Source: Pseudomonas sp. Irchel s3h14
Lineage (GTDB): Bacteria; Pseudomonadota; Gammaproteobacteria; Pseudomonadales; Pseudomonadaceae
NCBI RefSeq assembly: GCF_900187425.1
Contig: NZ_FYDJ01000003.1
Coordinates: forward strand, 150,987 to 214,986
Direction of reading: 5' to 3'
DNA: 64,000 nucleotides
A model generated the notes under the pieces. It saw only the letters and a list, made by a program, of their open reading frames with translations, had not been told where the DNA came from and did no database searches. Below are positions 58,960 to 61,431 of this stretch, piece by piece. The position numbers and the translations under genes were made by a program. Within the stretch, counting starts at the first letter, position 1, and each line of letters opens with the position of its first letter.

Positions 58960-59823
58960 TCAGGCGTTTTTACGGAATACGAACACCAGACCGATGATGA
59001 TCAGCAACATGCCAAGCATGCTCAACGCCGCCAGCCGGTTGCCGAAAATCAGGTAGTCCATCACCGCCGTCACCGCCGGCACCAGGTAAAACAGACTGGT
59101 GACATTGACCAGGTTGCCCCGGGCGATCAAGCGATACAGCAGCAAGGTTGCCAGCACCGACACCACCAATCCCATCCACAACACCGGCACGATGAAACCG
59201 GCGCTGTGTTCGAAATGAAAGGGTTGGAACGGCACGAAGACTCCGCAGAGCAACAGCCCGGCCAGGTACTGCACTGGCAGCGTGCCGAGTGGATTGTCGG
59301 TGATGCGCTTCTGCATGATCGAGCCGAACGTCATGCTCGCCAGCGCCAGCAAACCGAAGAGCATACCGGCCAATGACATACCGGCCAGACCAATGCCCTG
59401 ATAGACCACCATGATCAACCCGGCCAAACCCAGCGTCAGACCAAACATTCTGCTGGCTGAGCGCTGACGCTCCATGATCACCACCGTGAGAATGGGCTGC
59501 ACGCCCATGATCGTCGCCATCACTCCCGGGGTGACTTTCAGGTCCAGGGCCAGCAGATAGAAAATCTGATAAGCCCCCAGCAACACCACGCCTGTGGCCA
59601 TCGCATACACCATCGGCTTACCGCCCTTGGGCAGTTTCAGCTTGAGCAATGGCACCAGCAGCACCAATCCGCAGATTGCGATAGCGAAGCGAAACAGCAG
59701 AAAGGCAAAGGGTGACGCGTGGGCCAGGCCCCATTTGGAGAAGATCGCCCCGCTGCTCCACAGCAGAACGAACAGGCTCGTGGACACCGCCGCGAGCGCG
59801 GTTTTTTTCGAAAGGACAAACAT
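58960..59823 (-). CDS. EamA-family exporter with a leader ORF
   Basis: The 287-residue inner-membrane protein has ten helices in two EamA halves (LLWSSGAIFSKWGLAHASP; ALASMTFGSIMQKRITD). ATG 59823 with AGGTGG 5 bp upstream is preferred over an ATG at 59832. Compared with the other EamA genes here its 5' region is unusually long (about 460 bp to the next gene) and contains a proline-rich 54-codon ORF and an inverted repeat ending in a T-run, which suggests attenuation. The exported compound is unknown; peptide content suggests an amino acid or an antibiotic-like stress signal as inducer, but that is speculation. Confidence 0.83.
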   Translation of the reverse strand: MFVLSKKTALAAVSTSLFVLLWSSGAIFSKWGLAHASPFAFLLFRFAIAICGLVLLVPLLKLKLPKGGKPMVYAMATGVVLLGAYQIFYLLALDLKVTPGVMATIMGVQPILTVVIMERQRSASRMFGLTLGLAGLIMVVYQGIGLAGMSLAGMLFGLLALASMTFGSIMQKRITDNPLGTLPVQYLAGLLLCGVFVPFQPFHFEHSAGFIVPVLWMGLVVSVLATLLLYRLIARGNLVNVTSLFYLVPAVTAVMDYLIFGNRLAALSMLGMLLIIIGLVFVFRKNA

Positions 59824-59922
59824 GAATACCACCTGTAGTCAGGCAAAAAGCCAACTCAGCCGAAGCTGAAATTCAGTAGTTTTTTCAGGCGGGCACTTTT
59901 TAGACGGGCATGGAAACAGCAG

Positions 59923-60113
59923 AAAAAAGCTGATCAGCCCGAGAAGCCAACGCCTGGCGGTGATACGACTGCGCACACCGGCGTGCTACTGACAGGTGGA
60001 GGGTAATGACTGATCTGCGCAGGCTGCTGATTCCCGCACGGCACGACGCCAGCGTTGACCGCTGAATCGACTACCGCGTTGATGAGGGAAGCTGGCATGG
60101 GCTGATCTTTTTT
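59923..60113 (-). promoter_or_regulatory. Inverted repeat with A6/T6 ends framing the leader ORF
   Basis: On the minus strand AAAAAAGATCAGCCC (60113-60099) precedes the ATG, and GGGCTGATC-AGC-TTTTTT (59940-59923) covers the stop and a T-run. The 9-bp arms match exactly and the A6 and T6 could extend the stem. If the RNA pairs, the result is a terminator-like structure before the exporter gene, which translation of the ORF would open or close. Confidence 0.55.
59934..60098 (-). CDS. Candidate 54-codon proline-rich leader peptide
   Basis: ATG 60098 opens a frame of 54 codons ending at TGA 59934, 110 bp before the exporter start on the same strand. The peptide begins MPASLINAVVDSAVNAGVVP, has HYPPPVSSTP in the middle and ends SPPGVGFSG. 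PPP and PPG tracts slow ribosomes unless EF-P helps. There is no clear ribosome-binding site, and the frame is too short for routine gene finding. Its start codon directly follows, and its stop lies inside, the two arms of an inverted repeat. Whether it is translated is not known; I do not recognise a named family. Confidence 0.5.
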   Translation of the reverse strand: MPASLINAVVDSAVNAGVVPCGNQQPAQISHYPPPVSSTPVCAVVSPPGVGFSG

Positions 60114-60214
60114 GAAGGGTGGAACGGCGGGTTGGAAAACACCGAGCGCCGACTATAACCAGCGACTGACATGGATTGCAATGGCCAGTAAAAACAGCTC
60201 GCTGCAACGCGACC

Positions 60215-60282: not shown

Positions 60283-61221
60283 TCACCCAAACAACCAATA
60301 CCCCAACAATGTCAGCACCACCACCGCCAACACCGGTCGCAGTACACGGTAGGCCTTGGGATTTCGACGCTTCCATCGTTTGATCACACCGCTGAACTTG
60401 TCACTGGAGGTCTTGCTCCAGGCGTAAACCTGGTTAATCCCGCCAACACGTTCATCATCAAGATTCTGCGGTGCAGTGGCGCGACCCAAAAAGCCGCTGA
60501 TCCCGCGGTTGATGCGGGTCATGAGGCGGTTGCTCAGCGGTCGTTCGATGTCGCAAAAGAGGATGACCCGAGTCTTGTCGGTTTCATTCTTGACCCAATG
60601 CACATAGGTTTCGTCGAACATCACGTCTTCGCCATCACGCCAGGCGTAGACCTGACCGTCGACGAAGATCCGGCAATCGTCGGAGTTGGGCGTCGACAGC
60701 CCCAAGTGATAACGCAGGGAACCGCCGAACGGATCACGGTGCGGGTTGAGGTGGCTGCCGCCTGGCAGCAACGCGAACATGGCGCCTTTGACGTTGGGAA
60801 TGCTGCTGAGCAGTGCCACGGTTTTCGGGCACAGGGCTTCGGCCGATGGCAGTGGTTTGTCGTACCACTTGAGGTAAAAGCGCTTCCAGCCTTTCTTGAA
60901 GAACGAACCGAAGCCGGCGTCGTTGTTCCTTTCGGCGGCGCGGATGTAACCTTCGTCGAACAAATGCATCGCTTCGTCGCGGATGACTTCCCAGTTGTCC
61001 TTGAGCACATCCAGTTCCGGGAACTTGCTGCGGTCAAGATAGGGTTTGGATGGCACGCTGGAGAACAGGTACATCAAGGCGTTATAGGGCGCGAACAAAG
61101 CCGAGTGGTTGACGAACTGGCGCAAGACCGGCAAACGCGCCTTGCCGCGCAAATGCACAAAGAGAGTGCTGCCGAGGAACAGCAGCAAAAGCGACGCCTT
61201 TGCGGCAAGGGAAACGGTCAT
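60283..61221 (-). CDS. lpxO: Lipid A 2-hydroxylase / aspartyl-asparaginyl beta-hydroxylase-like (LpxO)
   Basis: The 312-residue Fe(II)/2-oxoglutarate-dependent oxygenase matches LpxO, which adds a 2-hydroxyl to a secondary acyl chain of lipid A at the cytoplasmic face of the inner membrane. The iron ligands H161-x-D163 (NPHRDPFGG) and H208 (ETYVHWV) are visible. Hydrophobic segments near residues 5-22 and at the C-terminus anchor it. ATG 61221 with GGAG 6 bp upstream is preferred over the frame to 61245. P. aeruginosa has two LpxO paralogues; which one this matches is not certain. Confidence 0.87.
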   Translation of the reverse strand: MTVSLAAKASLLLLFLGSTLFVHLRGKARLPVLRQFVNHSALFAPYNALMYLFSSVPSKPYLDRSKFPELDVLKDNWEVIRDEAMHLFDEGYIRAAERNNDAGFGSFFKKGWKRFYLKWYDKPLPSAEALCPKTVALLSSIPNVKGAMFALLPGGSHLNPHRDPFGGSLRYHLGLSTPNSDDCRIFVDGQVYAWRDGEDVMFDETYVHWVKNETDKTRVILFCDIERPLSNRLMTRINRGISGFLGRATAPQNLDDERVGGINQVYAWSKTSSDKFSGVIKRWKRRNPKAYRVLRPVLAVVVLTLLGYWLFG

Positions 61222-61431
61222 CAACAACTCCTTGATAGTAGACAACTTTGCACCACGCCATTTACCCGACGTGGCAGCCGGCCATCATAAACACTACCGG
61301 CCTCGGGAAGAACCCGCATAACTCAACATTCAGTGTTAAGGATTACGCAATAAAGCACTTCTTAACATAAGGTTCCTGAACGGGGGCTGACCTGAATCAC
61401 CCCCTCCCACTGGATCAAAAAATCGAAACGC

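Follow-up and report, generated by a model that had tools for sequence, protein, structure and literature searches.

A polyproline leader peptide as a probable translational attenuator of an EamA-family exporter gene in Pseudomonas and related genera

The locus was analysed within a window of 64,000 nt (the whole stretch of DNA from Pseudomonas sp. Irchel s3h14, contig NZ_FYDJ01000003.1), and all features described here lie on its minus strand. An EamA-family (DMT) transporter gene (58960–59823, ATG at 59823, 287 aa) was recognized by its match to Pfam PF00892 (E 5.2e-20); its score against TIGR00950 (NCBIfam) lay below the family cut-off, and a PDB sequence search with the protein gave no match. 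The gene is preceded by an ORF of 54 codons, MPASLINAVVDSAVNAGVVPCGNQQPAQISHYPPPVSSTPVCAVVSPPGVGFSG (59934–60098; ATG at 60098, stop codon TGA at 59936–59934), referred to below as the leader, which ends 110 nt before the EamA start codon. A consensus scan of the region yielded a single promoter-like site, sigma-70-like and located 5′ of the leader at 60152–60181 (−35 TTGCAA, 60181–60176; −10 TATAGT, 60157–60152; spacer 18). The TATA.T columns of this putative promoter were invariant in 46 diverse relatives, and the DNA similarity of the relatives starts at about 60183, that is, at the promoter. Transcription would start at this site and, because it lies upstream of the leader and was the only one in the scan, leader and EamA are probably carried on one transcript. 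In the 5′ UTR before the leader, many relatives (for example L013, L027 and L086) have a small, variable hairpin of the form GAGTC...GACTC or GCAGGT...ACCTGC, sometimes followed by a U run, which is weak or absent in the window (60101–60146). The locus is neighboured by a gene for an LpxO-like lipid A hydroxylase (60283–61245, NCBIfam score below cut-off) with a cysteine synthase-like gene next upstream of it, which probably reflects gene order only.

The leader peptide contains two cysteines (residues 21 and 43) and two polyproline blocks. The first, PPP, is encoded by CCT CCA CCT (codons 33–35, 59994–60002), is invariant or nearly so and is the predicted stall site; in the second, SPPG (codons 46–49, 59952–59963, with PPG at codons 47–49), the two prolines are nearly invariant. 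Of 299 sampled Pseudomonas genomes, 179 contained the peptide in a six-frame search (E ≤ 0.001), and frame, ATG and stop codon were retained in nearly all copies, with length differences of whole codons. Synonymous differences exceeded non-synonymous ones (pS 0.38 and pN 0.19 in 62 diverse copies; 0.41 and 0.11 in the core codons), the leader frame was the only one of the six that was free of stops in all 46 full-length representatives, and it also had the largest excess of pS over pN. The motif QQPxQISHYPPPV was strongly conserved within the genus. Judged by these sequence comparisons the leader is a coding ORF, and its conservation goes far beyond chance. An earlier note on this DNA had described a 54-codon proline-rich ORF with PPP and PPG tracts that no annotated feature explains, and this description holds: the leader region had no Rfam match even at E ≤ 1, the peptide had no Pfam or NCBIfam match at 1e-3, and both comparisons suggested in that note, a search for the peptide before EamA in other Pseudomonas and a count of synonymous against non-synonymous change, came out in favour of the ORF. 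At codons 35 (CCT) and 36 (GTC) the third positions were frozen, which pointed to a role at the RNA level.

Several irregular copies and minor structures were recorded. Two leaders (L166 and L206) carry a frame shift at the C run of the PPP codons (leader codons 32–37) that gives a truncated peptide ending YPPTCQ, with which sequencing error, decay and slippage at the stall site all fit; the L118 leader is broken by a stop codon (TAG near the end) and that of L175 by a frame change. A hairpin within codons 12–16 (CAGCG/CGCTG, replaced by CAGCA/TGCTG in one clade) was set aside, as this one change was its only support. Most Pseudomonas leaders are followed, just past the stop codon, by a short hairpin of the form CAGC...GCTG (59903–59934 in the window); its loops vary and some changes are matched, for example CAGCAACCGTTGCTG in L119 and GGCAACGGTTGCC in L150.

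Leader and exporter gene are linked throughout the sample. All 190 fetched copies of the leader lie before EamA on the same strand, with start-to-start distances of 239–281 nt. Among 25 Pseudomonas genomes without a leader match, 18 likewise lacked a match to EamA at E ≤ 1e-40; the other seven comprised three with a diverged form of the same leader and three with a different polyproline leader, and the remaining EamA match was a distant paralogue (37–38% identical). A profile search with the leader peptide in the rest of the family gave spurious matches only, and because the peptide is unrecognizable by sequence outside the genus, loci were located there through EamA orthologues, which occurred in 10 of the 19 family genera sampled. 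Each orthologue examined is preceded by an ORF that ends 72–147 nt upstream of EamA and encodes a Pro-Pro-rich peptide, for example MSRYPLPDPAIIAAASPARGAGAACPPPPVVAVASPPPPGAAYPPPGVSF (L227), MPNASAHSAMTTDPVGARVRACLSPMSPPVAPPPAARAGFPPPPPSAALG (L241) and MNKLTTLPCLYQQALPFVMEVYVPYHFIAPPVAPPPPPYLTTL (L246). Upstream ORFs of about 40–60 codons with at least two PP blocks were found for 68 of 72 EamA orthologues from ten genera; a PP block was present in all 72 EamA-linked leaders and PPP in 65, counts that come from loci related by descent and do not represent 72 independent events. Among 504 background genes, taken from 40 stretches of 20 kb in two genomes, four had at least two PP blocks and none had PPP. 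The leader peptides of different genera are often unalignable, and several lineages share only the proline blocks. A second leader type (L199, L200, L201, L238 and L249) ends in (R)AGTPPPPP or similar, a form that loosely resembles RAGP/RAPP-like arrest motifs; the EamA orthologues at these loci are approximately 51–57% identical.

The frozen codons belong to a tract that is complementary to the ribosome-binding site of the exporter gene. Read as their reverse complement, the codons CCN-CCN-CCT-GTC of the first block (Pro-Pro-Pro-Val) match the Shine-Dalgarno (SD) sequence of EamA, ACAGGTGG (59829–59836), such that CC(N)CCTGTC (Pro-Pro-Val) stands opposite GACAGG(T)GG; in the window this anti-SD, CCACCTGT, spans codons 34–36 (59992–59999). 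The mean duplex energy of leader and SD was −13.9 kcal/mol; shuffling synonymous codons weakened it to −11.6 and shuffling the codon order to −11.1 kcal/mol. The same measure in 320 other genes had a mean of −10.7 kcal/mol, with about 15% of background genes reaching −13.9 kcal/mol by chance. Of 71 leaders, 50 have the start of the duplex at their first PP block, and a leader tends to pair better with its own SD than with SDs swapped in from other lineages (permutation p 1e-4). For the analysis of covariation, 12 + 12 positions were aligned by anchoring on PP..V and CAGG, and L211, L220, L243, L258, L199 and L196 were placed by duplex. Over 10 pairs (40 distinct leader/SD pairs) the covariation score was 0.130 versus 0.086 in shuffles and was reached by 1 of 500 shuffles, a count that is not a strict probability as the sequences are related by descent; a 12-pair version was weaker and agreed with it. 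Two-sided changes between lineages were seen at five of the 10 pairs, and 82% of cells were paired over the 10 positions, compared with 32–54% when the two sides were slid against each other. Since the SD core CAGG is itself conserved, it is mainly the flanking pairs that are able to covary, and towards the ends of the duplex many positions do not pair.

Individual lineages illustrate the matched changes. In L216 and L211 valine is encoded by GTG and the SD is CACAGG, with a duplex of 12 bp in L216; L220 has CATCCTGC opposite GCAGGATG, and L246 has TCCTGTTG opposite CAACAGGA. In L262 the anti-SD is retained in a different codon frame and is read as His-Leu-Ser. Complementarity inside the ORF is weak in L240, L242, L251, L252, L254, L255 and L268; the covarying pairing by which a translational attenuator would sequester the SD is present in the family but not in all lineages. 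Within Pseudomonas the pairing is extended by a second helix, formed by TCAGTAG in the leader (codons 36–38, 59986–59992) and CTACTGA in the gap (59873–59879), which is replaced by TCAGTCG/CGACTGA and once by TCCGTAG/CTACGGA; fewer independent changes back this helix than the anti-SD:SD helix. Between its 3′ arm and the SD lies a UUCG hairpin, TCAGCTTCGGCTGA (59856–59869), which is partly predicted in the fold and kept in many relatives. RNAalifold on a genus alignment that ran to just past the leader stop codon gave weak covariation; it could not reveal the SD pairing because the SD lay outside that alignment.

Release of the SD by a stalled ribosome was assessed by constrained folding in which the ribosome was represented as a mask. 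In the window, the predicted probability of anti-SD:SD pairing was 0.92 in free RNA, 0 with a ribosome at PPP (codon 34) and 0.9 with a ribosome on PPG or at the stop codon. The predicted unpaired fraction of the SD was 0.07 in free RNA and 0.35 with a ribosome on PPP, and that of the EamA start codon rose from 0.52 to 0.92. Across the family, placing the ribosome on the first PP block rather than at the stop codon made the SD more accessible in 55 of 72 loci, an opening that follows from the direct complementarity of the PP codons and the SD; the free fold gave a probability of SD:anti-SD pairing of 0.3 or less in 22 of 71 members. A ribosome on the last PP block opened the SD above the stop value in 30 of 72, and direct opening by a stall at the last or a later block was not supported by the folding model. 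In the family, the median distance from the centre of the anti-SD downstream to the last later block is 12 codons, approximately one ribosome length, so a ribosome at that block could keep the following one on the anti-SD.

Taken with the conserved coding, these observations suggest that the leader probably acts as a translational attenuator, its first polyproline block serving both as pause site and as anti-SD. Polyproline sequences stall the ribosome, and such stalls are relieved by EF-P. While the leader is unoccupied at PPP, the anti-SD would pair with the SD and translation of EamA would be low; once a ribosome paused at the polyproline block, it would cover the anti-SD, and the SD and start codon would become accessible. 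By analogy with known stalls, pausing would occur at PPP and be relieved by EF-P, and slower Pro-Pro synthesis (through low or unmodified EF-P, low prolyl-tRNA or an exporter substrate acting on the ribosome) would lead to more exporter. Later PP blocks may park a second ribosome and thereby keep a trailing one on the anti-SD, which is offered as a suggestion.

The same gate could answer to proline starvation, with the proline codons acting as control codons that read prolyl-tRNA as in the leaders of amino-acid biosynthesis genes. Clusters of up to five or six proline codons, in which proline is conserved and the codon varies (CCT, CCC, CCA or CCG), are consistent with such a signal, but an exporter is hardly an obvious candidate for control by starvation, the PPP and PPG motifs are of the type on which EF-P acts, and within Pseudomonas the tripeptide context is conserved. 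We regard this signal, in which alone the reading differs from a polyproline attenuator, as somewhat unlikely. Alternatively, the nascent peptide with its cysteines, tyrosine and PPP may bind the exporter substrate or a metal and stall only then, which again differs in the signal alone. Induction by a substrate would suit an exporter, and the strong conservation of QQPxQISHYPPPV in Pseudomonas speaks for such a sensor; the peptides of other genera, however, share only the polyproline theme and some leaders have no cysteine (L219), and we consider a nascent-chain sensor unlikely. A sensor of this kind has been proposed for CutF of Rhodobacter capsulatus, an upstream ORF of cutO with a proline-rich, stalling-like motif, in which an anti-SD stem-loop between the genes shields the SD of the next gene and slowed translation frees it; CutF is a Sec-exported copper sensor with a CxxxC motif (PMC9973294). 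The EamA leader likewise combines a proline-rich, stalling-like motif with a predicted SD-shielding structure, but it has no CxxxC, its anti-SD consists of proline codons inside the ORF and its target gene is different; by the absence of CxxxC and of a Pfam or NCBIfam match, the window peptide falls outside the CutF-like/DUF2946 group.

Control could also be exerted by Rho-dependent attenuation, as at mgtL or cruR; the position of the ribosome on the proline-rich, C-rich leader would then decide whether Rho loads on the leader or the gap, and SD pairing would have a secondary role. The mgtL leader of Salmonella mgtA is a short, proline-rich ORF before a transporter gene that responds to EF-P and prolyl-tRNA and acts on transcription elongation through stem-loops B/C and Rho (PMC6460261; PMC5021804); its prolines are interspersed, and it responds to loss of EF-P (PMC6460261). 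Designed constructs have demonstrated that EF-P controls coupling at PPP, and polyproline stalls triggered Rho in a designed reporter (PMC5021804). The EamA leader resembles mgtL in being short, proline-rich and placed before a transporter gene, and differs from it in having consecutive prolines and pairing with an SD. Its base composition would suit Rho (C 0.40 and G 0.28 in the leader ORFs, C 0.36 and G 0.26 in the gap), but C richness follows from CCN proline codons and does not predict a covarying complementarity to the EamA SD; we consider Rho-dependent attenuation distinctly unlikely here.

The earlier note had proposed a possible leader-peptide attenuator before the EamA exporter, acting through termination at exact 9-bp inverted arms. 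Its geometry is present as described: the upstream arm GATCAGCCC (60099–60107) adjoins the leader ATG and is preceded by A6, and the downstream arm GGGCTGATC (59932–59940) includes the leader stop codon and is followed by AGC and T6 (59928–59923). One exact inverted pair of 9 nt within about 200 nt is expected by chance with a probability of roughly 8% (200 × 200/2/4^9), and is not striking. Both arms were intact in 25 of 46 diverse representatives, and the covariation analysis that the note had proposed revealed no two-sided change in them. T6 was present in 13 and A6 in 68 of 174 distinct leaders, so the terminator-like reading applies mostly to the window and its close relatives. A terminator scan gave one weak match (−10.4 kcal/mol) beside the T run, and in 33 loci from many lineages the scan of the interval between leader and EamA revealed no conserved intrinsic terminator in the form of a GC-rich hairpin with a U tract. 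Attenuation by an intrinsic terminator built from these arms and the T run is accordingly very improbable. What stands of the earlier proposal is a conserved, translated polyproline leader with pairing coupled to translation, and what falls is termination through the arms: the pairing that is conserved and covaries joins the polyproline codons to the EamA SD, which makes initiation of translation, rather than termination of transcription, the likelier point of control. Least probable of all is a free-standing small protein of 54 aa whose function is unconnected with EamA control, for which conservation of the peptide in the genus would speak, as the leader always adjoins EamA and other genera lose the sequence while keeping the proline blocks and the complementarity to the SD.

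In translational attenuation of the ermC/cat type, stalling of a ribosome on a leader peptide changes the pairing of the RNA so that the SD of a gene for resistance or export is exposed. The EamA leader is also a translated upstream ORF on which a stall is predicted to expose an SD; it differs in being polyproline-based, in having no known antibiotic-dependent stall and in its switch, which has two arms, one of them made of the stall codons. RAPP-type arrest peptides are reported to be Pro-Pro-containing nascent peptides that arrest ribosomes upstream of protein-localization genes (PMC7897499, PMC12992588); the target of the EamA leader, by contrast, is an exporter, and the window peptide has no RAPP or RGPP motif. 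No description of an EamA polyproline leader was found in open-access papers. The EamA leader would work like ermC or CutF control and belongs to none of the known families tested here.

To our knowledge, natural leaders that read the translation of consecutive prolines are few. The dual use of the codons CCT GTC, which encode Pro-Val, would provide the stall context and form the anti-SD, explains why valine follows the prolines in most lineages. More tentatively, and with less than even confidence, the leader may be a naturally occurring sensor, shared across the family, of polyproline translation (EF-P activity), in which one tract is both stall motif and anti-SD and is read into exporter production, the tract and the SD co-evolving while the peptide otherwise drifts; the signal may be the substrate of the exporter acting on the ribosome. 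As a reading frame of 40–60 codons that recurs in ten genera, has one target gene and carries an anti-SD that can be predicted, the leader would provide a compact system for testing EF-P or prolyl-tRNA sensing, and it opens a concrete way of finding what an uncharacterized exporter transports.
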